Assembly: GCA_948567375.1 (NCBI GenBank)
Contig: OX419761.1
Coordinates: 30,356,243-30,420,242, forward strand
Direction: 5' to 3'
DNA length: 64,000 nucleotides
Origin: Lunularia cruciata
Lineage: Eukaryota; Streptophyta; Marchantiopsida; Lunulariales; Lunulariaceae
Position numbers and translations under genes: made by a program. Under the pieces are notes generated by a model. The model was not told the origin of the DNA. It made no database searches and saw only the letters and a list, made by a program, of their open reading frames with translations. Positions 4,765 to 55,863 of this stretch are shown piece after piece (position 1 is the stretch's first letter; every line of letters begins with the position of its first letter).

Positions 4765-4773
4765 CCCTATTGG

Positions 4774-10658: not shown

Positions 10659-10677
10659 TGCTTTGTCTCTAGCCCAA

Positions 10678-12469: not shown

Positions 12470-12505
12470 AGCTCCCTTCCGTACTTGTACAATATATGTG
12501 AATTC

Positions 12506-13437
12506 TTATAACAACAAGATCCATCTTGCAATTTGCCCAAAAAAATCTGCCTTCTTGACCAAATGTTGCAATGCGTAATGGTCAACATAGAAGACAAACT
12601 CGTATCTCAGCAAGTAATGGTAAAATTTCTTGTAGGCATACACCATTCCGAGTGCTTCTCTTTCAATCGTCGAATAGTTCTTTTCTAAAACTAAAAGTTG
12701 TTGGTTAGCATAATAGATTGGGTAATCCTTCTTCTTGTCGTCCTTTTGACTCAAGACTACTCTAATTGCCATGGATGAAGTATCCACATATACATGAAAA
12801 GGGACGTTCCAATTCGGAGCCCTCATGATTGGTGCTTCAACCAATTTCTGGAAAAATGACACCTTTCAAAAGTTTGGCAAAGGTAATCTTAATGTACATC
12901 TCTTTGCCCAAACACAAAAAATTCATCAATGAAGACTTCCACAAATTTGCATAGGAAATCCTTGAAGATTGAATTCATCATCCGCTAGAAAGGAGCAGAA
13001 GCATTACACAATCCAAAGGGCATTTGATTGTAAACAAAAGTGCCCCAATTGGTTGTGAATATGGTTTTATTCTTGTCCTCTTCTTGGATGGATACTTGAT
13101 TGTACCCTAAAATTCATCAAGAAAATGTAACAAGGATGACCAGCTACTTGGTCTAAAATTGTATCAGTAAAAGACAAGGGTTGACAATCCTTCCTTGTGA
13201 CTGCATTTAACTTGCAGAAATCTTGGCACACTCAAATCTTCCCCATTTTCCTCTATGGGACAATGACAATGGGTGAAACCCATTCGTTGCTTAAGACAGT
13301 AAAGATTACTCTGGCCCCCAAGTACTTGTCGATTTCATCTTCAAAATTTTCAAAATTTTTCCTTTGGTCAAGACAATATCTCGACAGTCATTGGGGTTGA
13401 TGACTCCTTCAACATGACTCACTCGGCTTAATCCAAG
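12506..13437 (-). pseudogene. GY2 reverse transcriptase and RNase H
   Basis: RNase H at 12862-12506 is open: APNWNVPFHVYVDTSS with the first Asp, IEREALGMVYA with the Glu and FYVDHYALQHLV with the last Asp. Upstream, the RT is broken. Around 12990-12900 the active-site segment reads FVEVFIDEFFVFG, so the second Asp of FxDD has become Glu. Around 13030-12990 the block before it (FGLCNA-like) is visible. Would not be active. Confidence 0.75.
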
Positions 13438-14659: not shown

Positions 14660-15361
14660 GGCTCTGTGAAAACCCGGCAAATATTACTTTTGCTGTAATC
14701 AAGTAAGTAAAGTTCATTCCCACAGAGATACAATTCAGAATTGGTCAAATACAAAGTCAAATGTCACAATGTAGTTCTTCTTGATTGCGCCTTTAATCTC
14801 TTAGGTAGAAACTACACCCAAAAGAGAGTAACAAGCACTGATTTGCAGTCTTGTCATGAATTAACACTCTTTAATCACAACTCCATCAAATCTTTCCAAA
14901 CAATCTTGATTGTGATGATTTAGGCTCTCTAAAAAATGACACTTCACTGCAAAACTACTTCGTTTCAGAATTGTGTTCCACCCCTCCACTGAAGGCACAA
15001 CTTTCTTGATCAAAATTGCTTCACATCAACTTTGCGCTGCACTCACAAATGTAGAATACTACCAACACTAAAATTCCTCTAAGATATGTCAAGGCATTGC
15101 TTTGATTGCACTTCACTTAGGATCAAACACACAGAATGAAGATCAAGGCTACGGAATCCAACATCCAACAAACACACTGATTTTCACTTTGAAAATCTCC
15201 ACATACTCACAAACACAAACACAATATTGATACCCAAAATCAAGCTCAAGCAACGAGCACTACTTCATAGCACTTTGCTTTATCTATTCTCAAAAATTAT
15301 GACCACTAAACAACATAAGACTGGGAATGCCACTCTTAAATAGTGAAGCAAACGATAGTTA

Positions 15362-18042: not shown

Positions 18043-18060
18043 TGCTTTGTCTTTAGCCCA

Positions 18061-18069
18061 ATTTTTATA
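18061..18069 (-). promoter_or_regulatory. TATA box of GY2 LTR B
   Basis: TATAAAAAT on the minus strand, 386 bp from the LTR start. Followed by TGGGCTAAAGACAAAGCAATG, in which the conserved start codon lies about 20 bp downstream of the TATA box. Confidence 0.65.
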
Positions 18070-18460
18070 GAGTCACGCCTTCTCTATCTTTCTTCAATTT
18101 GAGTTTCTACCAAGAAATCACACCTCCTGCATGCTCCTGTCACTGTCAAGTGTCCTTCATGCGTATGACCGCCATTTTTGAACGGTCTCTTCTTGAATGT
18201 CTCACCCCACAGGAAAGTTGTTACACTGTCCTTGCCTCGGGTTGAGCACCCCCAAGACAAAGACTCCTTACTTTAGGTTGTATGCTGACAAGGCAATTCT
18301 AAGTACCTTGCCTCATGACCCGAAGTCACGTTACCTTGGGTTTCATCCCAAAGACACTTTTCTTTGCCTTCTTTGGCCATACAAGCGCAATTCAACTTCT
18401 CTACACACTTCTTCTTCAAAATTGAGGAAAAAAAAACAAAAATGTGGGTACCACAGGCTC

Positions 18461-20438: not shown

Positions 20439-20460
20439 TGTATCCCTGGCATCGGTGCCA
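20439..20460 (-). other. Primer-binding site of GY2
   Basis: Coding strand TGGCACCGATGCCAGGGATA, seven bases after the LTR end. It resembles the complement of plant tRNA-Asp (TGGCGCCGTTGCCGGGGAT) with three differences, a primer used by Athila/Tat-type elements. Element I has a diverged version at 52710-52689. Confidence 0.65.
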
Positions 20461-21084
20461 AAAATCATGTGACAACCCGACAAATATCACTTTTTGCAAT
20501 AATTAGGTAAGTAAAGTTTGTTCCCGTAGAGATACGATTCAAAGTTGGTCAAATATGAAGCAAAGTAACAACTTCAGTTCTTCTTGGTCACATCTTTAGT
20601 CTCTCAGGTAGAAACCACACCCAAAAGAGAATAACAAGCACTGACTTGTAATCTCGTCACAAATTAGCACTCCTTAATCACAACTACATCAAATCTTTCC
20701 AAACAATCTTGATTGTGATGATTCAAGCTCTCCCAAAAATGACACTTCACTACAAAATGACTTCGCCTCAAAATTGTGGTCCACCCCTCCATTGAAGGCA
20801 TAACTTCCTCAATCAAAATTGCTTCACATCAACACTATGCTACACTCACAAATGCAGAATACTACCAATTCTACAATTCCTCTCAAATCTGTCAAGGCAT
20901 TGCTCCGATTGCACTTCACTCAGGATCAAACACACAAAATGAAGATCAAGGCTGGAAAATCCAACATCCAACAAACACACTGATTTGCACTTCAAAATTC
21001 TCCCAACACTCACAAACATAGACACAGAATTGATACTCAAAATTAAGCTCACACGATGAGCACTGCTTCACAACACATTATTCT

Positions 21085-22789
21085 CTCTCTACTCCCCACT
21101 TCCTTCTCTAAGTTTTCAATTACCTGATTTTTTACTATTGCATCTACTTGTAGTACTTCCCTTTCCTCCTCACCTTGGATTATACTCTTCTTCAACTCCA
21201 AGTTCTCTTCTTCTAATCTTGCTAACACCTACAACATAGTCTTCACCTCCAAACACTTTGATTGCATCTCCTTCTTCTTGTGCTCCAACTTTACTAACAA
21301 CGGGCACACAACCTCCCAAAAATACTCTACTCCTCCACTTGAGTTTAGTTGCGGACTTTTCTCCTTCTTTGCCTCTTCTTCACTTGACACTTGCCTTCTC
21401 AACCGCAATCGCCTTATGTGAATGGATTCTTTGCTCCCCAAACTTCCACTCTCTACTTCTCTTACCTTACTCAGTCCCGCTTCATACTTTCCCTTCCTTT
21501 TGGAGCAAACTCCTCTCTAAATAGTCACCTTCTTCTCCTCCTACTGTGGAACTTCTTCTTCTACATGCAAGTTACATTCTTCTTCTATTTCCATCTTTCC
21601 TTTGTCCTCCTTGGGTACCGATTGCATCTCCCCTCCATCTTCACTCTTGCTGCTTGTTTCCCCTCTCTGCAACATGAATTTGGGTTCTTCCTCCTTGTCC
21701 AAATCTTCTTCCTTGCACTTGGCCTCTCCTTCTGACTCCTTGTCTAATAATGTGATTACCACCATGTCTCTCCTTGGGTTTACTTTCCTTGCTTCCAACG
21801 TCTTGCTGCCGCTTCTTCTTCTTCTCCTTGTCAACTCCTCTTCATCAACTTTGGAGTGTTCACCTTCAACTGCACACTCTGCCTTGTCTACGTGTAGTAC
21901 TCATCATTGCTCCTTATCTGCAAGATGTACTATTGCTGCTCCTCCGCATCAACATCTCTTCTCAAATTAAGGTGGAAGTGCGACACCATCTTGTGTCTCT
22001 TTGCCGTGTTCAGTAAGTTCAGTCCCAAATAGAAGTGGGCTATAAATGGCACAATGTAGTGTGGAGGCAACTTGTCTCGCAAGTTCCACACCATCTGTCT
22101 TGCACATTGATGAAAACACTTCACCCAATTGATTGGCTCCACTGCAAACATCTTGTGGAAGAATAACGCTTGATGTTTCATCACATAAGTGGTTCGCTCT
22201 AGCTTCAAGATAGTCATCATTGCTGTTACAATGCCTCTCTTCATCGGGTCCTTATAGCTCTTCACCTTGTAGCCATTCTTTGTGCATTTTGAAGAAAAGG
22301 TATCCCTCATCTCTTGGGTTTCTTCAGCTACTTCTCCCTTCCCCAAGAACGTGGATCTCTGCTCATCACTCGCCTCTCTTCCGAGTACTAACCTCCAATC
22401 CAACTCTGTCCATCAAGTCGGATTTCCCCTCTTCCCTTGTTCCTTGGGCCATCAAGACACTTACTCTTGATGATCTCAATCATGAAACTTGGAAAGCTAA
22501 TGTTCCAGTTCCATGCCAAGAATGTGATCCAAAGCTTGCTCAAGACTTCAATTCTTGCAATCACATTTGACCTCCGAATTGCATGATTTCTCATTGCAAA
22601 TTTAGAGTTCTTTTTCCCACCTCTCATCTTTCTCTCTTCCACTCTGGGTTGGAGGCTACTCTTCCTACTGATTCCCAGACTAACTCTCTTGACTTCCTCT
22701 CTACACACCCACGCATCTTTGACTACACTTCCCTTCTCATGATCTCCTGCAGGATGACTTCTTAACGGCAATGGAAAATTACTTGTCAT
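21085..22789 (-). pseudogene. LTR-encoded protein, copy C (C-terminal half deleted)
   Basis: From the conserved ATG at 22789. The globular part is well kept in 22403-21930 (WRLVLGREASDEQRSTFLGK, DKLPPHYIVPFIAHFYLG), the linker at 21834-21541 (MVVITLLDKESEGEAKC) and the first coiled-coil heptads at 21441-21229 (VEYFWEVVCPLLVKLEHKKK). The remaining coiled coil is lost in the deletion near 21085. This copy lies in a true 5' LTR that abuts a PBS, which ties the frame to the LTR. Confidence 0.72.
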
Positions 22790-22808
22790 CACTTCATCTC
22801 TAGCCCAA

Positions 22809-22816
22809 ATTTTATA
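22809..22816 (-). promoter_or_regulatory. TATA box of GY2 LTR C
   Basis: TATAAAAT on the minus strand, 379 bp from the LTR start, the same distance as in LTR A. Expected to be the promoter for the GY2 genomic RNA. Confidence 0.65.
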
Positions 22817-23195
22817 GTGGTGCACTTCCTCTATCTCTCTTCACTTTGAATGCCTATCAAGAAATCACACCTTCTTCATGCTCCTATCATTGTCAATTCC
22901 TCCTATTCATAGGCCACCCATTTTTGTGGTACCTTCTTGAATGTCCAACCCCAAAGGAAATATGTTACATTGTCCTCACCTCGGGTTGAGCACCCTCAAG
23001 ATGAAGTCTCCTTACTTCGGGTTGCAGGCTGACAAGCAAATTCAAGTACTCTGTCTTTTGACACAAAGTCACTTTACCTTGGGTTACAACCGGAGGACAC
23101 CTTTCTTCATCTTCTAATGCCATACAGGCGCAATACAACTTCTATATACACTTCTTCTCCACAAATAATAAAAAACAAAAAATGTGGGTACCACA

Positions 23196-29708: not shown

Positions 29709-30410
29709 AAACTTGTAACAACCCAACAAATATCACTTTTGCAATAATTAGGTAAGTAAAGTTTGTTCCCATAGAGAAACAAATAAAAAATAATTAAATA
29801 CAAAGACAAATGGTAACAAGTGGTTCTTCTTGGTTGTGTTTTTAGTCTCTCAGGTAGAAACCACACCCAAAAGAGAGTAACAAGCACTAATTTGTAGACT
29901 TGTCAAAAATTGACACTCACTAATTACAACTCATTCAAATCTTTCCAAACAAACTTGATTGTGATGATTAAGATTCTTCCAAAGACGGCCACTTCATTGC
30001 AAGGCACCTTCACTTCAAAATTTTGTTCTACCCCTCCACTGAAGGCACAACTCCCTTGATTGAATTTGCTTCACATCAACCTTGCACTACACTCACAAAT
30101 GCCGCATACTACCAATACTACAATTCCTCTCAAATCTATCAAGGCATTGCTCCAATTGCACTTCATTGAGGATCAAACACATAGATTGAAGATCACGTCT
30201 ATGGAATCTTACATCCAACAAGCACATTGACTTGCACTTTGAAACTCTCCACACACTCAAAAATCTAAAAACACAAAATAGATACTTGGAATTAAGCTCA
30301 AGCAACAAGCACTGAACTCAACACTTCACTTTTTCTATCTTCAAAAATAATGAATACTAAACAACATAAGACTACAAATGTCTCCTTTAAATAGTAGAGC
30401 AATTGATAGT

Positions 30411-32910
30411 TGTAAACAACTATACCATTCTGCAACAACTCTACAAACTTGCAGATCCAAATGACAATGCACCTCTTAATATCTGCCTCTTCAAATCTCA
30501 ATCTGTTCCTACTCCAATCCGATGTCTACTTCTTCTTTGGCTTCCAAACCCGATGATCCTCCAATCACTTCTCCTTCTTTGGATCTATCTAATTCTACTA
30601 ATTCCTTTGGTATTTCTACTCCCTCCTCAGTAAAAACTTCAATTGCATTGGTGGGTAACTTATTTAACTCTTTATCTCTTGACCCACTCTTCTTTGATGT
30701 CTTAGATAATTGATCCAAAGTTACTTGCACTCCTACTTCTGCAACTTTGGACTTCTTCTCCTCCTTCAGACTACTCCTTAGTCTCTCTAACTCTGAGTTC
30801 ACTAAATCTAATCTGAGACTTACATTGTCTCCTACCTCAATTATCTTCCTATCTACTTGTTCCCTTAGACAAATCAATAGAGTATTCATATCTATATCTT
30901 TTGCTCTTCTCTTCTGAGTTTCATGCACAAGCAATTTCAATTTGTGCAGTCTTGCTTTCTCCAATCTCCCTTCAGACTTTGTGCTCAGCATTGCCCGTAC
31001 TCTTCCAACAACTTCTCCTACTGACTTTGATGCATACCCCCAAGATTTATCTACCTTGAATTCTTCTCTATACATCTTCAACTCGTCTTTGTACTCAACA
31101 ACAAGCATCTTCTTCTCCTCCGCATACAGAGAACTCTACATCTCAGCACTTCTGACCAAGCCTTTCAATCTTTCCTCCTCTTGCTATTGGATCTCCAACT
31201 CCCTCTACCATGCTTGTTCCTTACCTACCACACTCTACTTTAGGCTCTTTAACTCCTGCTCTATCATAGCCGCCATCACCTTCACATGAATACTTTCAAT
31301 GCAAACTTCACTGACCTCCTCTTTCATCTTTGCCAACAATGCCATCTTCTCTTTCAACTCTTTGGCTTGACTATGCATTTCACTTCTACACTTCAAAAAA
31401 CTCTCTTGCAAGTTCTTGAAAATCTTCTTCTTCAAGACTGAATCCACTCAAAGTTCCTCAGCTTCTCCTTCTCTTTGAATTACACTCTCCTCCAATGTCT
31501 TCACTTCATCCAATGGATACTTCACCACCTGCAACTCATTCTTCACCTTCCTATGATTGTGTTGTATCACCTTATTCTGTGTCTTCAACAACTCCAACAA
31601 TTTTGGATTCACAATTTGTGTTAAGTACTTTACCCCATCAAAGCGTTCTTCATCTTTGGCTTTGTCTTTGTACTTTGCTTCTTCCGCCAAAGACTTGCCT
31701 CAAAGTCTCAATCTTTGTACCTTCAGCAACATTGCCTTCGAGCTTACTTCTTCTTGACAAACTGAGCTTGGACCTACGAGTTCAACTGTCACCGACCTCT
31801 TTGTTCTTCCTCCCTTCTGGTCTTCTTTCTTTGGTGCTTCATCCATCTCCTCTATGAGCAACTCCAAGCAAGGGCCATCTCCTCTCTCTATACAATCAAT
31901 CTCCGCATAGAATGCTTCATCTTCTTCCGCCTCAATTTCTTGCTAGACTTCCTCTTTGCCTTCACTTTCAATTTTGGATTCCTCACTCTGCAATGTGAGT
32001 TCCTCTTCTTTGGAGTCTCCTTTTTTGGACTTTGTCTCCAAAGTCTCCTCCTTCACCGCCTTCTTACCTCACGGGTTGAGTCTTTGGGTCTTGCATTATG
32101 GTTGGGGCAATGATACTTCTTCGGGTTTAGTCCGCTTCTTTATACTTTGGACTTTTTCCTTCCAACATCTCCCTCTTTCCTATTCTGGTGAAGAACTCAT
32201 TGCTAGCTTGCAATTGTAACATGTATTATTGCTCCTCTTCATCCGCTTCTTGTCAAAGATCAAGATGGAAATGTGACACCATATGTTGCCTCTCCTCTGT
32301 TGTCAATAGATTTAATCCAAAGTAAAAGTGTGCTACAAACGGTGCAAAATAATGTGGAGATGAATTGGTTGATGATCATCTGCCTTGTTTGCTTGTGGAA
32401 GCACTTCACCTAGTTCACCTTCACTCTTGCAAACATCTGGTGGAAGAAGACTTCCTATTGCATGTTCACATTTGTTGTTCTTTTGGGCTTGAACATGGCC
32501 ATGATCACTCCCACAATACTCTGCTTGATCAGATCCCAATAGGACTCTACTTTGTAGCCATTGTTGGTCCACAGAGCATAGAATGAGTTTCTGATTTTTG
32601 TGGTCTCCTTTGCAACATCACACTTCCTATAGAAGGTGACCCCAATTGCCTCTCTTGCTTCCTTCCCCAATACTAACCTCCAATCTGACTCAGTCCATCA
32701 AGCCGGATTTCCTCTCTTCTCCTTGACTTTGGAGCCATCCTCACAATTATTGACAGCTATCTCTACCATGATGCCTGGAAAACTGAAATTCCAGTTCCAT
32801 GCCAAGAATGTAATCCAAAGTCTATTCAAGACCTTGATCCTAGCTATAATATCTAATCTCCAAATTGTGAAACTTTGCATTGCGAGTGCATTCTTAGTCT
32901 TCTTTGCCAT
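30411..32910 (-). pseudogene. LTR-encoded coiled-coil protein, copy D
   Basis: Same architecture as B and F but a different subfamily. Blocks: 32910-32698 (IKVLNRLWITFLAWNWNFSF), 32670-32333 (globular part, strongly frameshifted), 31690-31448 and 31447-31235 (coiled coil: KMKEEVSEVCIESIHVKVMA), and 31108-30509 (LHKLKLLVHETQKRRAKDID, LDLVNSELERLRSSLKEEKK, LSKTSKKSGSRDKELNKLP). The frame fades near 30411 (QVCRVVAEWYSC). Stops and indels throughout. Confidence 0.7.
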
Positions 32911-33094
32911 GATTTGCTCTCTAGTTCTTCAACATTGGAAGACTATCCCCTCTCCTGGACACAACACTTTAACCCCTTTTGGACTTTGGAAAATTTCACT
33001 CTCAATCTGCTGCTTGATGCGCATTACTTTAGGATGACTACTCAAAGGAACATGATATCTACTTGACATATTCAATTTCCCTTACGTAATCACA

Positions 33095-33102
33095 ATTTTA
33101 TA
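33095..33102 (-). promoter_or_regulatory. TATA box of GY2 LTR D
   Basis: TATAAAAT on the minus strand, 385 bp from the LTR start. Confidence 0.6.
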
Positions 33103-33492
33103 GTACCCCAAAGTGGAGTCATTCTTCAATCATTTTCCAAATCAACTCCCACTTCTTCTGCATGTTGGTTTCATGTCATTGTCAATGTATTCTTCTTGTA
33201 CCTCCACCATTTCTTGAAGTGTACTTTCTTGTCTGGCCTGACACGTAGAGATGTTGTTACACCATCTTTGTATCAACCTTTGCTTCTTGGTCCAAAGATG
33301 ATCTTCTTTGGATTTGTCTCTTTGTAACCTCATCTGAGTACTTCTGGTCTCCCATCCAAGGTCAACTTCATTGGATTTACTCCAAAGATACATGAGTCCA
33401 TTCTTTCCTTTGTAATTCGGCTTCCTCAATACACTTCTTCTTCAAAACTTTAACAAAAAAAAGAAAAGAAAAAATGTGAGTACCACGAAACT

Positions 33493-34828: not shown

Positions 34829-36164
34829 TAATAGTTTTGAGATAAGATATGAAGAGGTACATTGTCCTTTTGGATCTGCAAGTTGGTAAATTTGTTAGGA
34901 AACAATTGAGTGAGTTAGATAATTGTTGAAGTGCTTTGCCTATTTAAAGGGGTATTCAAAGTGTGTTGTTGTTTATTATTCATATTCCTAAGAATAGATA
35001 AAGAAAAGTGCTGATCTTAGTACTCGTTGCTTGTCTTAACTCCAAGTATTGACTATATGTGTGTGTTTGTGAGTGTTGGGAGAAATTCAAAGTGCAATTT
35101 CGAGTGTTTGATGTTGGATTCTACATCTCTAATTTTATTCTATGTGTTTGATCCTAAGTGGATAGCAATCAAAGCAAAGCCTTGATAGATTTGAGAGGAA
35201 TTGTAGTGTTGGTAGTCTTTTGCATTTGTGAGTGCAATGTGGTTTTGATGTGAAGCAATTTGATCAAAGAAGTTGTGCCTTCAGTAGAAAGGTGGAACAC
35301 AATTCCAAGGTGAAATGGTTTTACAATGAAGTAGCCATTTTTGGGAGGGACTTAATCATCACAATCGAGTTTGTTTGGACATAACTGAAAGATTTGTGAT
35401 TATGGGTGACAAATTCTTGTGATGAGACTACATTTCAATGCTTGTGTGACAACTTGGCAAATATCACTTTTGTGGTAATCAAGTAAGTAGAGTTTGTTCA
35501 CACAAAGATATAAATCAGAAATTTTCAAATACAAAGACAAATGGTAACAAGTAGTTCTTCTTGGTTGCATCTTTAATCTCTCAAGTAGAAAACCACACCC
35601 AAAAGAGAGTAACAAACACCAAATCTTATTATTTTCACAAATTAACGCTCCTTAATCATAACTCATTCAAATCTTTCCAAACAAATTTGATTGTGATGAT
35701 TCAAATTCTCCCAAAGATGGCTACTTCACTACAAATCACCTTTGCCTTGGAATTGTGTTCCATCTCTCCACTGAAGACACAACTTCCTCAATTGAAATTG
35801 CTTTGCATCTATTTTGCATTGTACTCACAAATGCATAATACTACCAACACTACAATTCCTCTCAGATCTGTCAAGGCATTGCTCTGATTGCACCTCACTC
35901 AAGATCAAACACACAAAATGAAGATCAAGGCTGTGGAATCCAGAATCCAACAAGCAAAACTGACTTGCACTTCAAAATTCTCCACACACTCACAAACACA
36001 ATCACAAGATTGATACTCAGAATTAAGCTCAAGTGACAAGCACTAAACTCAACACTTTGCTTTATCTATCTCTAGAAATTTGGAATACTAAACAACATAA
36101 GATTGCAAATGCCCCCTTTAAATAATAAAGCAATCAATAGTTGCTAACAACTATATTGTTTTAC

Positions 36165-38653
36165 AACAACTATACCAACCTACATATTCAAAATGACAAC
36201 GCACCTCTTCATATCTGCCTCTTCCTATCTCAAAACTGGTCCTAATCTGATCTGATGTCTATGTCTACTTTGGCTTCCAAACCCGATGATCCTCCTATCA
36301 CTTCTCCTTCTTCGGGTCTATGTTCAACTACCAAATCCTTCACTATTTCTACTACTTCTTCACTATGAATTACAATTGAGGTCATGGGTAACTTTTCTAA
36401 CTCTTTATCTCCCGACCCACTCTTCTCTAATGTCTTAGTGGATAACTTTGAAGACACTTGCACTCCTACTTCTGCTACTTAAGACTTCTTTTCCTCCTTC
36501 ATACTACTCCAAAGTCTTTCAAATTTTGAGTTCACTAAATCTAATCTGAGACTCACATTGTTTCCCATCTAAATTATCTTCCTATCTACTCTTTCTCTCA
36601 AACAAATCAGATATGAACACTCTTTTGCTCTCCTCTTTAGAGTTTCTTACACAAGCAATTTCAGTTATCGCTTCCTCTAACCTTCCTTCAGACTCCCTGC
36701 TTAGCATTGCTTGCAATCTTCCAACAACTTTTCCTACTGACTCTGATGCATTCCCTCAAGATCATTCTACCTTCAACTCTTCTTGGTACATCTTCAACTC
36801 ATCTTTGAACTCAGCCACAAGCATCTTCTTCTTGTCCGCATACTGTGAACTCTGCATCTCAGCACTTCTTACCAAACCTTGCAATCTTTCCTCCTCTTGG
36901 TATTGGATCACCAACTCCCTCTGCCATGCTTGATCTTTTCTTGTTGCACTCTTCTGCAGGCTCTCTAACTCTTGCTCCATCATAGCTGCCATTGCCTTCA
37001 CATGAATACTTTTGATGCAAACTTCACTGACCTCCTCTTTCATCTTTTCCAGCAATGTTGTCTGCTCCTTCAACTCTTTGGCTTGACCCTGCATCTCTCT
37101 TCCCCTCTTCTCAAAACTCTCTTGCAAGTTCTCTAAAATCTTCTTCTTCAAGACTACATCCACCCAAAGTTCCTCAACTTCTTCTCGTCTTTGGATTAGA
37201 CTCTCCTTCAATCCTTTCACTTTGTGTAGCAGATACTTCACCACCTGCAACTCATTCTTCACCTTCATATGATCTTGCGGGATTACCTTCTTCAGCATCT
37301 TCAGCAGCTCCAACAATGGAGTTACAATTTATGTTAAGTATTTTACTCCCTCAAATCCTTCTTCATCTTTGGCTTCATCTTCATACTTTGCTTCTTCTGT
37401 CAAAGCTTTCCCCCAAAGTCTCAATCTTTGTACCTTCAACAATATTGCTTTTGAGCTTACTTCTTCCTTGTAGATTGAGCTTGGACGTGTAGGTTCAACC
37501 ATTATTGACTTCTTGGCTCTGCTTCCCTTCCGGTCTTCCTTCTTTGGCTCTTCATCTATCTCTTCCATGGCCAATTCTAAACAAGGGTTATCTCCTCCCT
37601 CCATACAATCAATCGCTGCATGGAATGCCTCATCTTCTTTTGTTGCAATTGATTGCTGAACTTCCTCTTCACCATCACTCTAACTTTTGGATTCCTCACT
37701 TTGTAGTGTGAGCTTGGCTTTTTTTGAGTTTCCTCCTCTGGACTCTATCTCTCCTTCAGACTCTATCCCCAAAGTATCCTCCTTCACCGCCTTCTCACCT
37801 CACGGATTGAGTCTTTGGGTCTTTTGTTGTGTCATGGGCAATGCTACCTCTTCGGGTTTAGTCCACTTCTTTGTCTTTGGATTTTTTCCTTCCATTATCT
37901 CCCTCTGTCACATTCTAAAGAAGTGATCATTGCTAGCTTGCAATTGTAACATATATTGCTGCTCCTTTTCATCCGCCTTTCATTGTAGACCACGATAGAA
38001 ATGTGACACCATGCGATGCCTCTTCTTTGTTGTCAATAGATTTAATCCAAAATAGAAGTGTGCTACAAACGGTGTGAAGTAATGTGGAGGTGAATTGGTT
38101 CTCCAATTGACTATCATTTGCCTCGTTTGTTGGTGGAAACACTTTTCCTAGTTCACCTTCACTCCTACAAACGTTTGGTGAAAGAAGACTACTTGCTGCA
38201 TGTTCACATATGTTGTTCTTTTGAGTTTGAGTATAGCCATGATTGCTCCCACAATGCTCTGCTTGATCGGGTCCCAATAGGACTCCACTTTGTAGCTATT
38301 GTTAGTACGTGGAGCAAAGAACAAATTTTTAATTTCTGTTATCTCCTCTGGAGCATCACACTTCCAATAAAAGGTTATCCTAGTTGTCTCTCCTACTTCT
38401 TTCCCAATACTAACCTCCAATCCAACTTAGTCCATCAAGCTGGATTTCCTCTCTTCTTCTCAACTTTGGGACCTTCCTCACAATTATTCATAGCTATCTC
38501 TACTATGACACTTAGGAAACTAAAATTCCAATTACAATTCCATGCCAAGAATGTAACCCAAAGCCTATACAAGACCTTGATTCTAGCTATCACATCTAAC
38601 CTCCGAATTGCAAAACTCCTCACTGCAAGTGCGTTCTTAGTCTTCTTTGCCAT
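36165..38653 (-). pseudogene. LTR-encoded coiled-coil protein, copy E
   Basis: Subfamily of D. Blocks: 38653-38435 (AIRRLDVIARIKVLYRLWVT), 38420-38148 (SYKVESYWDPIKQSIVGAIM), 37604-37329 (acidic and basic linker), 37316-36762 (coiled coil: KILENLQESFEKRGREMQGQ, AMMEQELESLQKSATR) and 36463-36242 (LEKSGSGDKELEKLP). Frameshifts and stops between blocks. Confidence 0.7.
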
Positions 38654-39094
38654 GATGTGCTCTCTAGTTCTTTGACACTAAAAAACTATCCCCTCTCTTG
38701 GACGCGACTGTGGTACCCACATTTTTTGTTTTTTTTGAAATGAAGAAGAAGAAGTGTATAGAGAAGTCGGATTGCGCTTGTATGGCCAAAGAAGGCAAAG
38801 AAAAGAGTCTTTGGGATGCAACCCAAGGTAACGTGGCTTTGGGTCATAAGGCAAAGTACTTGGACTTGCCTTGTTGGCATACAACCCAAAGTAAGAAGTC
38901 TTCGTATCAAGGGGTGCTCAATCCGAGATGAGGACAATGTAACAACTTTTCTTTGGGGTGAGAAATTCAAGAAGGGACCATTCAAAAACTGGTGGTCATA
39001 CGCGTGAAGGACACTTGCCAATGACAGGCGCATGCAAGAGGTGTGATTTCTCGATAGAAACTCGAATTGAAGAGAGATGAAGAAGGCGCGACTC

Positions 39095-39102
39095 TATAAA
39101 AA
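39095..39102 (+). promoter_or_regulatory. TATA box of GY2 LTR F
   Basis: TATAAAAA, 386 bp from the LTR start, followed by TTGGGCTAACAATGAAGCAATG. The second ATG there (39122) is conserved in all copies. Confidence 0.65.
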
Positions 39103-39121
39103 TTGGGCTAACAATGAAGCA

Positions 39122-41793
39122 ATGTCAAGCAATATTCCTTTGCTGTTGAGGAGTCGTCCTGCAGGAGATCGTGTGAAGGGAAGTAGAGTTGAAGATGTGC
39201 TGGTGTGTAGAGGAGAATTCAAGAGAGCTAATCCGAGAGACAATGAGGAAGAAAGAAAGATGGGAGGAGGAAAGAAGAACTCCAAATTTGCAATGAGAAA
39301 TCATGCGATTTGGAGGTTAGATGTGATTGCCAAAATTGAAGTCTTGAGCCGACTTTGGATCACATTCTTGGCATAGAACTAGAACGTGAGTTTTCCAAGA
39401 TTCATGACCGAGATAATCAAGAGTAAATGTCTTGATGGCCTTGAGGAAGAGGAGAAGAGAGGAAATCTAGCTTGCTGGACGGAGTCAGATTGGAGATTAG
39501 TACTCGGAAGAAAGGTAAGCGCGGAGCAGGGTGCCACGTTCTTGGGGAAGGTAGAAGTAGCCAAAGAAACCCAAGAAGTGAGGGATGCATTCTCTTCAAA
39601 GCGTACAAAGAATGGGTACAAAGTAGAGAGATACAAGGATCCGGTCAAGAGAGGGATCATGAGTGCTCTCATGGCAATCCTGAAGCCAGAAAGAATGACT
39701 TATGTGATGAAGCACCAAGCGGTGTTCTTCCATAAGATGTTTGCAAGAGAGCCAATCAACTGGGCAAGGTGCTTCCATGGGCGAACAAGGCAGATGGTGT
39801 GGAACTTGTGGGATAAATTGCCTCCACACTACATTGTGCCGCTTGCAGCACATTTCTACCTTGGGCTGAATCTGCTCAATGCGGCGGAGCGCAACAGAAT
39901 GGTGTCGCATTTTCATCCCGACTTAAGAAAGGAAGTCAACACGGAGGAGCAGCAGTACATTCTTTAGATCCAAAGCAACAATGAGTACTACGCGCAAATG
40001 GGAAAGAGTGCGCAGGTGGATGTAAGTACTCCAAAGTTGAAGAAGCGGAGTCAACAAGGAGAAGGTGAAGATGTCAAGAGAACAAGACCTCGGAAAACCA
40101 GAAGAGTAAACCCGAGGAAAGGTATGGTGGTAATCATGTTGTCGGAAGAAGACTCGAAAGGTGAAGCCGAGTGCAAGTCCGAAGACTCGGAATGTGAGGA
40201 AGAACCCGAGCTCACACTATAGAGTGGAGATACAAGTAGTGACAGCGATGAAGGCGGGGAGATGACGTCGGTTCCCACAATAGAAGAAGAAGTTTGGATG
40301 GAGCTCAAAGAAGAGAGTAACGTGAAGTTAGAAGACAAAGTGCCAGAGCAAGAGGAGAAGAAGATTACTATTTAGAGAGGAGTTTGGTCCAAGCAAAAGG
40401 TGAAGTGTGAAGCGGGACCAAGCAAGGTAAGGGAAGAGGAGAATGCCAATTTGGGGAGTGAAGTGTCCATTCTGATATGACAATTGCAGAGAAGAAGGTG
40501 AGTATCGAGAAGAAAAGGTAAAGAAGGAGATCACTCTGCTAGTTGAAGTAATCGTGAGTGACGGAGTGGAGTACCTGCATGAAGTTGTGTGTCCTTTGTT
40601 GGTGAAATTGGAACACAAGAAGAAGGAGATGCAGTCAAAGTGTCCGGAGGTGAAGACTGTATTGCAAGTATTAGCACGACTAGAAGAAGAGAACTCGAAG
40701 TTGAAGAAGAGTATAATCTGAGGTGAGGAGGAAAAGGAAGTACTATGAGTGGATGCAGTAGTGCAGAGTCAAGTGGTAGAAAACTTGAGGAGAGAAGCAA
40801 GGTATGAAGAGGAACTTGTGAAGCAGAGTGCCATAGCAAAGGAAAGACAAATGGTTGAATATGAGATCTTGAAGCAGCAGTTTGCTGATTCAAGACTAGA
40901 AATTATCCATGCTATGGTGAGAGTAGTAGAGAAGGAACAAGAGCTTGATAGGGTGGTGGAGAGTGTAGAAGAGATGAAGCAACTATGGCAACAAGAGTTG
41001 ACAGTGAGATATAGGGAAGAAGAGAGATTGCGAGAGTTACTTTGTAATCAGGAGGAGAAGATTGTATAGAAGGAGAATGAGAAGGAAACTATGAAGGCTG
41101 AGTTTGAGGCAGAATTGGCAATGTACCAGGAGGATTGGCTTGCAGATCAGGAGCGCAAGAGGAAGATGAGACTGGAGCCCTTGAAGGAAATTGTAATTAG
41201 GATGAACGCAATGTTGAGTACAGAGGCCAGTGTGCGTATCGAGGAGATGAGGCTGCACGAGTTGAAGTTGTTGGTGCAGGAGATGAGGAGGAGACATGTG
41301 AAGGATACCAATTTGAACGCATTGTTGATTAGTCTCAAAACTCATGTAGATAGGGAGATATTGGAGGTAGAAGACAATATCACAATTAGATTAGACTTAG
41401 TAAAATTGGAGATAGATAAACTTTGGAAAGATGTTAGAGCAACACCCGAAGTAGATGAAGTAGGAGTGCAGATGTCCTCGGAGTTACCATTGGAGACATT
41501 AGAGAAGAGTGGGTTGGGAGAGAAGGAGTTAGAAAGATTACCCACTAGTGAGTTTTAGATCAAGAAAGAGAACTATTAGATTTGGTAGAAGATGTAGGAG
41601 TTATAAAACCCAAGGACAAAATAGTAGAAAGTTAAAGTTACTTTGGGTTCGGGTTTGAAAGCCAAGAAAGAAGTAAACATCGGGTTGGATTAGTAACCGA
41701 TTTGAGATTTGAAGAGGCAGATATGAAGAGGTGCATTGTCATTTTGGAGCTCTAGGTTAGAAGAGTTGTTGTAGAACGGTATTTTTGTTAGAA
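39122..41793 (+). pseudogene. LTR-encoded coiled-coil protein, best-preserved copy (F)
   Basis: About 890 codons from ATG 39122 to the TAG after ERYFC at 41791. Blocks in one frame from 39122 to 40480, then one frameshift (about 40480-40560), then one frame to near the end. About ten in-frame stops, several apparently CAG to TAG or TGG to TAG changes (for example in WITFLA-stop, and YIL-stop-IQS). Residues about 45-290: globular (SFPRFMTEIIKSKCLDG, DKLPPHYIVPLAAHFYLG). About 290-400: linker with basic clusters (KLKKRSQQ, RPRKTRRVNPRKG), possibly nuclear targeting, then acidic. About 440-760: coiled coil (VLQVLARLEEENSKLKKSII, RYREEERLRELLCNQEEKIV, EDNITIRLDLVKLEIDKLWK). C-terminus: LETLEKSGLGEKELERLP. 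No family recognised. Confidence 0.78.
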
Positions 41794-42622
41794 CTACCGT
41801 TTGCTTCACTATGGAAGAGTGGCATTCGCAATCTTATGTTGTTTGGTGCTCATTATTTCTGAGAATAGACAAAGCAAAGTGTTGTTTTCAGTGCTCGTTG
41901 CTTGAGCTTAATTTCGAGTATCAACTTTGTGTTTGTGTTTGTGTTTGTATGGAGAATTTTGAAGTGCAAGTTAATGTGCTTGTTGGATGTTGGATTCCGC
42001 AGCCTTGATCTTCATTCTGTGTGTTTGATCTTGAGTGAAGTGCAATTGAAGCAATGCCTTGATAGATCTGAGAGGAATTGTAGTGTTGGTAGTATTCTGC
42101 ATTTGTGAGTGCAGGGTGAAGTTGATGTGAAGCAATTTTGATCGAGGAAGTTGTGCCTTCAGTGGAGGGTAGAACACAATTTTGAGGTGAAGTTGTTTTG
42201 CAGTGAAGTGCTATTTTTGGGAGAGCCTAAATCATCACAATCAAGATTGTTTGGAAAGAGTTGAAGGTGTTGTGATTAAGAAGTGTGAATTCGTGACAAG
42301 ACTACGAATCAGTGCTTGTTACTCTCTTTTGGGTGTGGTTTCTACCTGAGAAATTAAAGAAGAACTCAAGAAGGACTACATTGTTACTATTTGACTTTGT
42401 ATTTGACCAATTCTGACTTGTATCTGTGCATGAATGAACTTTACTTACCCGATTACCGCAAAAGTGATATTTGCCGGGTTGTCACAGTGACACTTTAACT
42501 CCTTTTGGACTTTGGAAAATTTCACTCTCAATAGGCTTCTTGACACACACTACTACATGATGACTACTCAAAGGAATGCAATATCTATTGAACATATTTG
42601 ATTTCCCCCTATGCAATTGCAA

Positions 42623-42630
42623 TTTTATAG
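42623..42630 (-). promoter_or_regulatory. TATA box of GY2 LTR E
   Basis: TATAAAAT on the minus strand, 382 bp from the LTR start at 43012. Confidence 0.6.
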
Positions 42631-43188
42631 TACCCCAAAGTGCATTCATTCTTTAGTCAATTTCAAAATCAACTCCCACTTCTTTTGTGTGTTGGTTTTC
42701 TATCACTATCAAGGTATTCTTCTCTTGCCTCCACCATTTCTTGAAGTGTACTTTCTTGCCTAGCCTGACAGGTAGAGAGGTTGTTACATTGTCTTTGTCT
42801 TGGCCTTAGCTTCCCGGTCTGAAGATGCACTTCTTTAGATTTATCTCTTTGTAAGCCCATCCGAGTATTTTTGGTTCCCAACCTCAGGTCAAGTTCTTTG
42901 GGTTTACTCAGAAGACACACAAGTCCATTCTTTCCTTCATAATTTGGCTTTCTTAATTCACTTCTTCTTCAAAAATTTAACAAAACAAAAGAAAAAAAAT
43001 ATGGGTACCACAACTTGTTACTCTCTTCTGGGTGTGGTTTCTACTGGAGAGATTAAAGAAGAACTTAAGAAGGACTGATTTGATTACTTTTCTTTCTATT
43101 TGGATATTTCTGACTTGTATCTCTATGTGAATAAACTCTACTTTCCTGATTATTGCAAAAGTGATATTTTCCAAGTTGTCACATAGGT

Positions 43189-51263: not shown

Positions 51264-52006
51264 TATGACAACCCGGAAAATATCACTTTTGCGGTAATCA
51301 TGTAAGTAAAGTTAGTTCCCGTAGAGATACAATTCAAAATTGGTCAAATACAAAGTCAAACAGTAACATGTAGTTCTTCTTGGGTTCTTCTTTAATCTCT
51401 CAAGTAGAAACAACACCCAAAAGAGAGTAACAAGCTCACAATCTTGACAACTTGTCACAAATTCAGACACCCATAATCACAACATAGCAAATTCTGTCCA
51501 AACAAATCTTGATTGTGATGATTCAGATTCTCCCAAAGACGGCACTTCATTGCAAAATGACTTTGCCTCAGAATTGTGTTCCACTCTTCCACTGAAGGCT
51601 CAACTTCCTTGATCAAAATTGCTTCACATCAACTTTGTGTTGCACTCACAACTGCAAAATACTACCAATACTACAATTCCTCTCAGATATGTCAAGGCAT
51701 TGCTTTGATTGCACTTCACTCAAGATCAAACACATAGAATGAAGATCAAGGCTATGGAATCTTACTTTGGTTTGTTACAATCTGAAGTAAGCTTCCTTTG
51801 GTTTGTCTTATATCAAGGCTGTGGAATGAACAAACCGAAGTAAGCTTCTTCAGGTCTGATCCAATCTAAGCCTTCTTCCTCTAACATAAAGTCGACTTCC
51901 TCGAGCTTGATCAAAACACTTGTTTCCCCTCATTTCTTCTCTATTTGGTTTCAACCAGGCACGTCTTCTTCTAAACTCGTCCAAAATGAAAAATGTGGGT
52001 ACCACA
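51264..52006 (-). repeat. 3' LTR of element I (internally deleted)
   Basis: Coding-strand start TGTGGTACCCAC at 52006 next to the PPT, end at 51264 (TATGAC in place of TGTGAC). Relative to the 5' LTR about 1.15 kb is missing; the junction near 51775-51850 contains a scrambled filler including a second copy of AAGGCTGTGGAAT and AAGTAAGCTTC. Confidence 0.82.
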
Positions 52007-52717
52007 TACTCCCTCCCTAAAATGTGAGCATCTCCGCAAACATAGACCTCCGACTTTGGAACAAGATGAAGATAATGACAAAGGTAAAGTTTCTCTCCTT
52101 GATTTTGAACAGCATTCTGGACAAAATTAATAATTAAAGTGGTCTTTGTCAATACTTCAATAATTTCCTTCTTTGCATGCTCAATTGAGTCCTCCAAATG
52201 GATTACTTCAGCCCAACAAGGATTTTTGTCTTTTGATTCAAGTTTTGCTCATAGATCCGTAGTCTTCCTTCCCTCTATTGTAAACTAATTTTTTTCTTTT
52301 TGTTTTCTTTTTGTTTTCCTTTTTTTCTAACGGGGAGAATTGCAAACCAAACAAGGCGATGCCTACTCCAAATCACTCCAAGATTTAAATTTATTGTTTG
52401 TGGCCAAGAAACTAAAGGTGACAATTGGAACTCAAGGGAACGTGTCTTAAGATTCACTTTCTCAAGAGATGGGGGTTCAAAAATGCCAAGTGTTGGTGAC
52501 CCATAGAGTCTTGTGGCCACCATATGCTCCAACTCACTCCAAAAACAAAATTCCTTGTTTGATTCTTTAGAGGAAGTAGACTCCTTCGAGTCTTGATTTA
52601 ATTATTGAACATTCTTGAAAATTCTCCTCATTTTCCTCTATTATTACAACATACAAACAAAACTTCCTATGCTTTCACTCCTAAAGATTGTATCCCTGGT
52701 AGCAACACCAAAAAGCA
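52007..52717 (-). other. Internal region of element I, non-coding
   Basis: PPT TTTTAGGGAGGGAGTA (52022-52007), then about 670 bp with no frame of note and an A-rich coding-strand run near 52290-52330, then PBS TGGTGTTGCTACCAGGGATA (from 52710), seven bases from the 5' LTR. Confidence 0.75.
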
Positions 52718-54608
52718 TGTGACAACCCGGCAAATATCACTTTTGTGGTAATCAGGTAAGTAAAGTTTATTCCCGCAAAGGTATGATTCAAAATTGGTCA
52801 AATATGAAGTCAAACAATAACATATAGTTCTTCTTGGGTTCTTCTTTAATCTCTCAAGTAGAAACTACATTCAGAAGAGAGTAACAAGCTCACAATCTTG
52901 ACAACTTCTCATGAATTCAAACACCCATAATAACAACATAGCAAATTCTGTCCAAACAAATCTTGATTGTGATGATTCAAATTCTCCCAAAGACAACACT
53001 TCACTACAAAATGACTTTGCCTCAAAATTTTGTTCCACCCCTCCACTGAAGGCACAACTTCCACAATCAAAATTGCTTCACATCAACTTTGTGTTGCACT
53101 CACAATTGCAAAATACTACCAACACTACAATTCCTCTTAGATCTATCAAGGCATTGCTTCAATTGCACTTCACTCAAGATCAAACATATTGAATGAAGAT
53201 CAAGGCTGCGGAATCCAACATCCAACAAGCACATTGACTTGCACTTCAAAATTCTCCTCACACTCACAAACACACACAAAGTTGACACTCGAAATTAAGC
53301 TCAAGCAACGAGCACTGAAATCAGCACTTTGCTTTATTTATCTTTAGAAATATGAATATTGAACAACATTTGACCGCAAATGCCACCTCTTAAATAGTGA
53401 AGCAAACAACAATTACTAACAAATATACCGTTCTATAACTACTCTTCTAACCTACAGATCTAAAATGACAATGCAACTCTTCATATCTACCACTTCCTAT
53501 CTCAAAACTATTACTACCCTGATCCAATATCAATCTCCTCATTGGCTTTCAAACCTGATGATCTTCCTATTACTTCTCCTTCTTTGGGTATATCTGATTC
53601 TACCAAGTCTTTCATTGTTTCTACTACTTATTTCTTCACTAGGAACAACAATTGAGATCATGAGTAACCTTTCTATCTCTTTATCTCCTGACCCACTCTT
53701 CTCTAATGTCACAAATGACAACTTTGAAGACACCTGATTCCTACTTTTGCAACATCGGGTCTAACTACTATCAATTCCTTTGCTAATTCTACTATATCCT
53801 CATCAAGAATTGTAATTGAAAGCATTGGTACACTATCTATGCCTTCAATTTGTAACCCACTTTCCCATAATCTCTCATGTAACTGACCCAAAGACACACT
53901 TATTGTCTCATTTTGCACTTTGGTTTTATTTACTACTATTATTTCTCTTCTAGTTTTAGCTTATCTTCAATCAGAACTAAAATTGAAGTCATGGGTATCC
54001 TAAATATCTTCTTTCCCTATCCTAACTATTTTTGATACTTCAAATATCTAACCCAAAGACTCCTACATTCAATGTCTGACTATCTCAGGTTGAATCATAT
54101 TTGTCTTGAGGCAAAGTCTTTAGTCTCGAAGTCCAAAGTCCAAAGTCCAAAGTCGTATAGACCCAAAGACACTAACTTACTATGTACATCTACTCCCAAA
54201 ACTTCAAATGCTTGTAACTTCTTCTACAGACCTCAAAAATCTATGATTTTGGTGGCAATAGAAAGCTCTAAATGAGGCGCTTCCAACGAGATATAACACT
54301 CTTGATTTGGACATGTTATTAATGAGATACAGCTCCTGCAAAAATCCTGACATGTAACCTCCATTTTGATGCAAAGTACCCTCTTCCGGTGTCTGGCCTC
54401 CTTCTTCTTCTTCTTCTTCTTCTTTCTCCTCTGATACAATGTAAGCTTCTTCAAGTCCGATCCAATCTGAGCCACTCTTCCTCTAACACAAAGTCAACTT
54501 TCTTGAGCTTGATCAAAACACAAGTTTCCCTTCATTTCTTCTCCATTTGGTTTCAACGAGGCACGTCTTCTTCTAAACTCGTCTAAAATAAAAAATGTGG
54601 GTACAAAA
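52718..54608 (-). repeat. 5' LTR of element I
   Basis: Begins on the + strand TGTGACAACCCGG at 52718 and ends GTGGGTACAAAA at 54608 (mutated form of GTGGGTACCACA). Carries the C-terminal end of the LTR frame only (53733-53539 reads LEKSGSGDKEIERL) and short CCAAAGT repeats near 54130. Confidence 0.82.
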
Positions 54609-54613
54609 ATAAC

Positions 54614-55228
54614 TTCAACTACCAAATCCTTCACTATTTCTACTACTTCTTCACTAGGAACTACAATTGAGGTCATGGGTAACCTTTCTATCTCTATCTC
54701 CCGACCCACTCTTCTCTTATGTCTCAAATGATAACTCCAAAGATATTTGTACTCCTATGGCATCTACTTTGGGCTTCACTCTTACATCCTTCCAAATTTT
54801 ATTTATCTTCAACTTTACTTATTCTAATCTGATCATGATATTGTCTTCTACTATCAATATCTTCCTATCTACACTAGTTCTGAGACTAATTAGCAAGGCG
54901 TTCAAATCTTTATCCTTCTCATTTCTCCTCCTCGTCTCTTGCACCAACAACTTCAACTTGTGCAATCTTGTTTCTTCAATCTTACACTTGCTTTTGTACT
55001 CAATATTGCATTCATCTTCTTTACAATCTCCTTCAATGGCTCAAGTCTCATCCTCCTCTCATGTTCCCTATCCGCTAGCCAATCTTCTCTATACATTGCC
55101 AGTTCAGCCTTGAATTCAGCTTTCATAGTCTCCTTCTCCTTCTCCTTCTGAACAATCTTCTCCTCTAGATTATAAAGTAGCTCCCATAATCTTTCATCTT
55201 CTCTATATCTCACTGTCAACTCCCTTTG
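54614..55228 (-). pseudogene. LTR-encoded protein remnant in H (C-terminal coiled coil)
   Basis: 55219-54953 reads the coiled coil (RYREDERLWELLYNLEEKIV, EDWLADREHERRMRLEPLKE). Following sequence to 54660 reads back the part before LEKSG-type end. The N-terminal globular part is missing; sequence right of 55230 is a different U3-like region. Confidence 0.65.
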
Positions 55229-55863
55229 TTAGAGCTACTTCTTCTCTTCTACACTCTCCTAACTATTTCATACGCTTCATATGTTTGACCTGAAGAGTCT
55301 TGCATCCAATGTTTGACTACCTAGGATTGAATCACATTTGTCTTGAGGTGAAGTCTTTAGACCCAAAGTTATGTAAACCCAAAGTCATATAAGTTCAAAG
55401 TCGTATAGACCAAAAGACACCAACTCGAAGTCTTTCAACTACTCTGTACATCTACTACAAAAACTTCAAATGCTTGTAACTTCTGCTCCAAACTATGCAA
55501 TTTTAGTGGCAGCTGAAAGCCTTGATTGAAATGCTTACAACAAAACATAGCATGCATGATTTGAACTTGAGGTCATTGAGATATGGCCCCACAATAATCT
55601 TGACCTACAACCTTCATTCCGATACAAAGAAACCCTCCTTCGGCGTCTAACCTCCTTCCTCCTCTTCATGTAACACAAAGTAAGCTTCTTCTGGTCTGAT
55701 CCAATCCAAGTCCTTTTCCCTCCAACATGAAGTTGACTTCTTCAGGTCAAATCAAAATACAGGTTTCTCATCATTTCTTCTCCATTTGGGTTCAATTTGG
55801 TTTCAAAAGGGCACTTCTTCTTCAAAACTCATCCAAAATGAAAAATGTGGGTACCACAATTGG

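Follow-up and report, generated by a model that had tools for sequence, protein, structure and literature searches.

A probable protein gene inside the long terminal repeat of a Ty3/gypsy family in Lunularia cruciata

The superantigen gene sag of mouse mammary tumour virus (MMTV), an animal retrovirus, sits in the U3 region of the long terminal repeat (LTR), and its product is a membrane glycoprotein. HIV nef and foamy virus bet overlap U3. VANC is an anti-silencing protein of the DNA transposon VANDAL21. Additional ORFs (aORFs) of plant LTR retrotransposons (Grande, RIRE2, Retand and env-like elements) occupy the internal region according to PMC7264820, most of them past pol and ahead of the 3' LTR. 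Retrosat2, RIRE3 and RIRE8 have LTRs longer than 3 kb and an ORF0 upstream of gag-pol, according to an excerpt of PMC3485330.

The family described here resembles MMTV sag in that a whole protein gene inside the LTR gives two per element. However, this is a plant Ty3/gypsy element with a 3.8-kb LTR and a ~860-aa coiled-coil protein, and the likeness drawn is one of arrangement. In HIV nef and foamy virus bet an accessory coding sequence also extends into the LTR, but lies only partly inside it. Like the aORFs as described there, the LTR frame is an extra ORF that most copies retain in conserved form and to which no function is assigned; unlike them, it lies wholly within the LTR rather than between the LTRs. 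Retrosat2, RIRE3 and RIRE8 share the long LTRs and an extra ORF 5' of gag-pol, whose placement within the LTR is unstated in that excerpt. VANC, a transposable-element accessory protein acting in trans, serves as a functional model only and belongs to a DNA transposon. In open-licence PMC text, where matches to the phrase 'LTR-encoded' were covered in part, no case of a protein gene within a plant LTR was recognised, and passages of PMC5408684 and a term search of PMC6317226 added none. For an element of this kind, the LTR is an uncommon site for a protein gene.

Ty3/gypsy elements and solo LTRs

The window, i.e., the 64-kb stretch of DNA analysed here, contains LTR units of two subfamilies (Table 1). 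Unit F has the termini TGTGGTACCC...GGGTTGTCACA at 38709 and 42486 and a target-site duplication (TSD) with one mismatch (gcgac/gtgac). The sequence-only reading had given units B, D, E and F a length of about 3.78 kb and 5-bp target duplications. The length holds for D and F, but B and E are shorter; the duplication is perfect in D and nearly so in F, but no TSD was readable for B or E. B and E share 86% identity over 1.7 kb and belong to one element, with D nested within its internal region. As had been proposed, the same ends adjoin a polypurine tract (PPT, beside B) and a primer-binding site (PBS, beside E), the latter presumably close to the complement of plant tRNA-Asp. The G element repeats this layout, with an LTR end at 52718 beside a PBS-like site and an LTR start at 52006 beside a PPT. 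A2 (43012 to 35445, with F nested in it) and C form the second subfamily, whose protein is ~40% identical to that of F. Rfam and tRNA scans of the window gave no matches.

Table 1. Positions of LTRs, element parts and the LTR gene in the window
Feature	Position	Strand	Basis
Solo LTR F, full length	38709..42486	+	ends and TSD; similar long copies elsewhere in genome
TATA box (TATAAAA), LTR 387-393	39095..39101	+	alignment and motif count
Decayed LTR gene, ~857 codons from ATG at LTR 414	39122..41693	+	translations, reading, dN/dS
N-terminal Trp/Phe-rich part, ~254 aa	39260..40021	+	alignment A1
Long C-terminal part, probably coiled coil	40503..41555	+	frame block
Solo LTR D, full length	14665..18455	-	perfect TSD gagcc
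LTR E, 5' LTR of Ty3/gypsy element, internal deletion (2728 nt)	20468..23195	-	adjoins PBS
LTR B, 3' LTR of E-B element, truncated (1742 nt)	9323..11064	-	adjoins PPT
PBS of E-B element (TGGCACCGATGCCAGGG)	20443..20460	-	adjoins LTR E
PPT of E-B element	11065..11080	-	adjoins LTR B
Decayed pol of E-B element, between E and B	11772..13023	-	tblastn and codon comparison
LTR A2 main part, C-type subfamily	35445..38708	-	TSD caagt/caagc
LTR A2 first 526 nt	42487..43012	-	F inserted in A2; TSD caagt/caagc
LTR C, C-type subfamily	29714..33487	-	
LTR G, 5' LTR of second element, shortened	52718..55858	-	adjoins PBS-like site
PPT of G element	52007..52022	-	adjoins 3' LTR starting 52006
G element 3' LTR, shortened, 743 nt, most of frame missing	51264..52006	-	

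Elsewhere in the genome, copies of the LTR flank a ~6.15-kb gag-protease-RT-RNaseH-integrase core, and in complete elements this core is bordered by a PBS at the 5' LTR and a PPT at the 3' LTR; two C-type copies (L165 and L169) also adjoin a PBS. A Pfam search of one element (L152) revealed gag, protease and RT-RNaseH-integrase in this order between the LTRs, with the protease matches below the curated cut-off. Same-strand pairs of matches 9.6-10.0 kb apart numbered 14, against a mean of 0.01 under random placement. The LTRs end in TG...CA, and an exact 5-bp TSD was found by automatic cut in 8 of 28; many of the others had a TSD off by one base or an LTR miscut by two bases, and five of the 28 adjoin a PBS or PPT on one side. 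A control search with pol in a 5.8-billion-protein set gave 1448 matches among 7986 scored candidates, including Riccia and Marchantia elements, with the best in Riccia sorocarpa. The earlier claim that the units are LTRs is borne out by their ends, TSDs, adjoining PBS and PPT and the gag-pol core between copies, and F (38709-42486) is such an LTR in solo form, from a Ty3/gypsy element.

The frame inside the LTR and the selection on it

The gene in F is decayed, with two frameshifts that split the frames and 11 stops in codons 64-891 of our reading, and its measured length falls short of the ~890 codons first claimed. In-frame ATGs lie at LTR 414 and, as an alternative start, at LTR 552 (39260). 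Codon-position bias begins at codon 64 of the reading (the ATG at 552) and is absent from codons 31-63; codons 1-63 were considered unproven and excluded from most counts. Stops and frameshifts interrupt it in the copies in the window. A single ancestral frame, as proposed from F and its neighbours, was recovered in the genome: all 44 fetched long LTR copies, from two subfamilies, have one long sense frame at the same site inside the LTR ends, and the frame spans ~812-858 codons. Because the queries for these copies were LTRs that bear the frame, the searches may have missed elements lacking it. As in the sag arrangement, the ORF lies within the LTR ends and in both LTRs of the three complete elements examined, decayed there, with the second LTRs seen in part because the fetched stretches end within them. 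Among 109 matches, 37 were stop-free across the matched 377 aa, and five of the 37 belong to open frames at least 830 aa long. The intact frame that the sequence-only reading had looked to the genome for occurs at four places (875-879 aa, stop to stop); the four fetched copies have zero stops or frameshifts over 812 codons in a check confined to the frame.

Between element lineages, dN/dS of the LTR frame was 0.12-0.30, far below 1, compared with 0.60-2.08 in frames whose third positions differ from its own. Between insertions, the sense frame gave 0.14-0.23 for the N-terminal part and 0.15-0.20 for the coil; the other two sense frames gave 0.69-2.08, antisense frames 0 and 1 gave 0.60-1.87, and the antisense frame with shared third positions gave 0.25-0.36. 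Two copies (L146 and L147) compared with 26 F-type copies each had a dN/dS of 0.16, with 278-297 differences at third positions and 106-146 at positions 1 and 2. In control comparisons of the LTR pairs of single elements, dN/dS was 0.49, 0.47 and 0.38; the B/E pair gave 0.49, and its other five frames 0.54-0.66. The four unbroken frames and L147 form two lineages, with values of 0.43-0.53 within and 0.22-0.24 between them. C against A2, within one subfamily, gave only 0.38, and cross-subfamily values were 0.18-0.30, where synonymous sites are near saturation. Over the same elements, gag and pol gave 0.11-0.48. These codon comparisons show that the LTR frame was under purifying selection in its source lineages, for which the sequence-only reading had proposed a test by dN/dS across copies. 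They also show neutral-looking decay after insertion, as seen between paired LTRs, and place the constraint on the gene at about the level of gag and pol. Because the frame is present in 44 long copies, has low frame-specific dN/dS and is unbroken at four places, the LTR held a real gene. We regard a complete protein gene contained in the LTR of this Ty3/gypsy family as the best overall explanation, and a probable one.

In an unbroken relative, Pro is absent from residues 481-624, and heptad periodicity was detected in 2 of 13 windows (real value matched by at most 13 of 500 shuffles). By eye, basic runs in the charged linker look like nuclear signals. AlphaFold on ten window-only rows of the N-terminal part gave no usable model (mean pLDDT 38). 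The Pfam search suggested earlier found no family above the curated cut-off for an unbroken copy, the ten rows of alignment A1 or five pieces of F (for these pieces, best chance-like E 0.0008). NCBIfam had no match to the LTR protein. In PDB sequences, where the search covered the N-terminal part, the alignment gave a single match with E 0.48 and a 392-aa N-terminal stretch gave none. In a 5.8-billion-protein set, searched in a way that reaches only relatives sharing exact short words, the 7986 best candidates for the F reading included none at E<=0.001, and the 758 candidates for residues 1-250 none at E<=0.1. No relatives were found in phage records or viral contigs. A 14-base pattern, a poor test, hit 119 stretches in viral contigs, which were taken as chance matches.

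A structural role as a second gag-like protein, rather than a regulatory one, is unlikely for the product. Its coiled coil, basic segments and gag-like constraint would suit such a role, but the element already encodes a gag in which a capsid domain and zinc knuckle are present, and the LTR protein showed no BLASTP similarity to it and no Retrotrans_gag match in Pfam. It is very improbable that the sequence inserted separately, or stems from a single capture of a host gene, and rides in part of the LTRs. The lack of any homolog found fits it, as does the 743-nt LTR of the G element, which keeps both ends and little of the frame; however, other parts of that LTR are also missing, and it resembles a deletion. 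All 44 long copies, found with frame-bearing queries, hold the frame at the same site; no intact element lacking it, with this sequence as a separate insertion, was seen with these queries, and complete elements carrying it exist. The gene could still have come from a host long ago. A chance stretch held open by the composition of purine-rich DNA (GAA/AAG repeats) can be dismissed, although some antisense frames are also poor in stops, given the third-position excess, the frame-specific dN/dS, the 40% protein similarity between subfamilies and the loss of the selection pattern in LTR pairs.

Promoter, RNA and possible role of the protein

The TATA box and nearby ATG of the sequence-only reading are present, with the ATG ~21 bp downstream (LTR 414), and in F the box lies at LTR 387-393. 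It is kept in most copies: TATAAA occurs within LTR 331-470 in 27 of 31 F/D/E-type and 10 of 15 C-type LTRs. By eye, the last ~550 nt are the best-conserved non-coding part of the LTR between subfamilies, and in five copies that were compared the gag ATG lies 89 nt past the LTR. The start of genomic RNA could therefore fall 3' of the frame, which would then lie in U3, as does MMTV sag. Such an RNA, beginning in the last few hundred nucleotides, with the frame under its own upstream TATA promoter, is plausible though short of probable. The last 640 nt are poor in ATG (observed/expected 0.47, with CAT at 0.73), which is suggestive, but other trinucleotides are equally low (ATG has rank 5 of 61) and the copies are related by descent. 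Against this topology, no TATA box was noticed near the LTR end, whereas the one at LTR ~387, upstream of the frame, is widely kept. The gene-in-LTR claim would be unaffected by it; only the proposed RNA order changes. Alternatively, and rather more doubtfully, as the sequence-only reading would have it, the RNA may start ~25 nt past the TATA box, placing the frame in R/U5 as the first cistron, with gag expressed through splicing, reinitiation or internal ribosome entry. The TATA box and the stretch around the first ATG are common to both subfamilies, in line with this order, but a long frame and a total of some 3.4 kb would then separate gag from the cap.

We tentatively propose that the LTR's own TATA promoter makes the mRNA; the gene would then be present twice per element and be retained by solo LTRs. 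With its Trp/Phe-rich N-terminal part, charged linker with basic runs and long coiled coil, the product may form oligomers and serve the whole family in trans as an accessory protein, probably a nuclear one. It might hold LTR promoters active or free of silencing, or alternatively assemble an RNP or integration complex. By such reasoning, a nuclear trans-acting accessory factor would be the most likely role.

Stops common to both LTRs of an element were found in all four pairs (4, 3, 1 and 1), and one is a GAG to TAG change absent from all other of the 26 F-type copies. This suggests that elements with a broken copy of the LTR gene moved. Unpaired copies share 1.62 stops on average and up to 6, so the two pairs with one shared stop are no evidence. 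Shared stops can also stem from recurrent hot-spot mutation or from gene conversion between LTRs. It is possible, though we advance it hesitantly, that the LTR is a self-contained helper gene, with promoter, frame and 3' end inside the repeat, spread twice per insertion, and that solo LTRs are free-standing sources of the trans factor, serving elements with dead copies too.

LTRs usually count as regulatory DNA, and a solo LTR as a dead remnant. The LTR described here carries a gene with gag-pol-like constraint, in two subfamilies whose proteins are ~40% identical; should this gene be expressed, a solo LTR can be a gene, and annotation that masks LTRs would conceal proteins of this sort. If the self-contained helper-gene reading is true, solo-LTR formation, which deletes gag-pol, would leave the LTR gene standing, and plants would have a class of gene-carrying LTRs. 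The family offers a natural test of keeping a helper gene alive through LTR-LTR recombination.

The frame-bearing units as LTRs

We searched the 566-Mb Lunularia cruciata genome with F, a solo LTR of a Ty3/gypsy family, and scored 36 candidates among 14,850 first-look places. Thirty matches exceeded 3.7 kb, and 28 F-type copies including F were fetched (L120-L147). A PBS adjoins L122 and L135, and a PPT adjoins L131, L142 and L147 (5 of the 28). Three of the five adjoining 9-kb stretches take in part of the second LTR, at a spacing of 6.13-6.17 kb; the remaining two, L148 and L150, hold LTR pieces only. The internal region of L152 matched the Pfam families Retrotrans_gag, zinc knuckle, reverse transcriptase, RNase H and integrase, with aspartic protease below the cut-off. 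Comparison of five copies (L148, L149, L151, L152 and the minus strand from 20467 onward) placed the gag start at the second of the overlapping ATGs (ATGAATG, 85 and 89 nt past the LTR). Searching at the protein level with a portion of the frame, the long sense ORF inside the LTR that codes for a coiled-coil protein, gave 109 genomic matches, among which 14 same-strand pairs were spaced by 9.6-10.0 kb (mean under random placement, 0.01). Paired LTRs around a gag-pol core, together with this spacing, indicate that complete elements carry the frame in both LTRs. The sequence-only reading had taken the frame-bearing units to be LTRs, which is confirmed by the PBS and PPT sites, the second LTRs and the core between them.

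Among the matches listed, those nearest to the family pol came from the liverwort Riccia sorocarpa, as predicted proteins; the best shared 62% identity across 97% of the query, and identity reached 77% across 41%. Calypogeia and Marchantia stood lower, amid many plants and unnamed metagenome proteins. Ty3/gypsy bursts in L. cruciata are described in the accessible part of a published study (PMC9985172).

A length of about 3.78 kb had been given for units B, D, E and F; it holds for D and F, which are full length, and not for B and E. One LTR family is nested three deep around F. In the G element, the PBS variant is TGGTGTTGCTACCAGGG, the distance from PBS-like site to PPT is only about 0.7 kb, and the 3' LTR pieces are oddly rearranged. 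Further Ty3/gypsy sequences in the window are also tabulated.

Features in the window and paired LTRs from the genome search
Feature	Position	Strand	Description
F	38709-42486	plus	Start TGTGGTACCC, end GGGTTGTCACA; flanks gcgac/gtgac
D	14665-18455	minus	Full-length copy; 82% identity to F; perfect 5-bp duplication gagcc
E and B			5' and 3' LTR of one shared element; PBS after E, PPT before B; 86% identity over 1.7 kb
Decayed pol of E-B element	13023-11772	minus	
Nested LTRs	34624-43183		F within A2 (C-type), TSD caagt/caagc
Older LTR copy holding A2	34624-35445 and 43014-43183	plus	
G element	50378-55858		PBS-like site after 52718, PPT before 52006; possible TSD ccaat/ccaac
3' LTR piece of G element	52006-51264		Just 743 nt; most of frame missing
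Further Ty3/gypsy element	2201-6390	minus	gag and pol in long open frames (538, 250, 536 aa)
Relative of 2201-6390 element	46.2-50.3 kb	plus	Protein pieces 69-87%
Distant-family reverse transcriptase	62483-63949	minus	488-aa frame; 26-29% identity to 2201-6390 element
L135 and second LTR in stretch L149			LTR pair of one element
L142 and second LTR in stretch L151			LTR pair of one element
L147 and second LTR in stretch L152			LTR pair of one element

Anatomy of the LTR frame and selection on it

Of 31 F/D/E-type LTRs, 27 have a TATAAA motif within LTR positions 331-470, as do 10 of the 15 C-type LTRs. In F, the first in-frame ATG follows the TATA box by about 21 bp, and the next lies 138 nt further on. 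An excess of third-position changes was absent in codons 31-63 and present in codons 64-150; because it begins only at codon 64, we take the second ATG as the secure start of coding and regard the first as a possible start. The protein opens with a Trp/Phe-rich part of about 250 aa; a charged linker connects it to the C-terminal part, which is long and almost without Pro and Gly and in which 2 of 13 windows showed heptad periodicity (reached by 9 and 13 of 500 shuffles). By eye, the first 350 nt or so of the LTR align poorly between subfamilies, and the last 550 nt or so (41940-42486 in F) look strongly conserved though non-coding. This last part is also ATG-poor.

Between window copies, dN/dS in the sense frame was 0.14-0.23 for the N-terminal part and 0.15-0.20 for the coil. 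The other two sense frames gave 0.69-2.08 and antisense frames 0 and 1 gave 0.60-1.87; the antisense frame whose third positions coincide with those of the sense frame gave 0.25-0.36. The two LTRs of a single element served as control, since they diverge only after insertion. These pairs gave 0.38-0.49, with codon positions nearly even (56/60/76, 49/61/69 and 13/13/21); for B and E, the value was 0.49 in the frame versus 0.54-0.66 in the remaining five. Between lineages, dN/dS lies far below 1, as expected under the purifying selection sought across copies. The F-type burst averaged 0.27 over 325 pairs, and L146 and L147 versus the burst gave 0.16. Comparison with C-type copies gave 0.18-0.30, with synonymous sites near saturation, and the two C-type copies C and A2 gave an ambiguous 0.38. 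In the same elements, gag gave 0.15-0.48 and pol 0.11-0.47. The simple reading of these sequence comparisons is that the frame was constrained in source lineages and neutral once inserted.

Decay, mobility and possible role of the LTR gene

All 28 F-type LTRs contain nearly the entire frame, decayed, with 2-16 stops per copy (codons 64-891 of the reconstructed reading) and 1-6 alignment shifts; a shift near residue 850 in most copies is an artefact of using F as reference. The C-type set comprised all 14 matches above 3.7 kb (C excluded) and two of about 3.5 kb, with 40 candidates scored. All 16 hold the frame, with 12-25 stops each, and a PBS adjoins two. All 44 LTRs were found by frame-bearing queries, so this count says nothing on frame-less LTRs. 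Most of the 246 stops trace to C-to-T or G-to-A changes, among them 80 from CAG to TAG, 45 from CGA to TGA and 28 from TGG to TAG. Of the 109 protein matches, 37 were stop-free across the matched 377 aa, five of them within an open frame of 830-879 aa. Four of these five, of 875-879 aa and known from the frame stretch alone, have neither stops nor frameshifts over 812 codons. Together with L147 they form two lineages, with dN/dS of 0.43-0.53 within and 0.22-0.24 between.

In L142 and L147, LTR dS was 1.19 versus 0.37 for pol in the same two elements (L142/L151 and L147/L152), a mismatch suggesting that the LTR gene moves between element backbones. LTR and internal region have separate histories in some elements, and LTR modules seem to have been swapped between element lineages.

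In the four LTR pairs, the number of stops common to both LTRs of an element is 4, 3, 1 and 1, compared with a mean of 1.62 and a maximum of 6 between unpaired F-type copies. One pair-shared stop (GAG to TAG) is absent from all others of the 26 F-type copies. The stops common to paired LTRs suggest that elements moved when their LTR gene was already damaged, consistent with a protein provided in trans, although gene conversion between LTRs or mutations recurring at the same sites could produce a similar picture.

In the accessible parts of published work, extra ORFs of plant elements (PMC7264820) and Retrosat2 ORF0 (PMC3485330) lie in the internal region, whereas the present ORF lies inside the LTR. 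Within the portions of the open-licence literature consulted, the gene of mouse mammary tumour virus was the only LTR-encoded one recognised, and no plant LTR with an internal protein gene was recognised. This is an ordinary Ty3/gypsy element whose unusual part is a constrained gene within the LTR. Each element would bear the gene twice, and solo LTRs would retain it; the most likely role of the LTR protein may be that of a trans-acting nuclear accessory factor.
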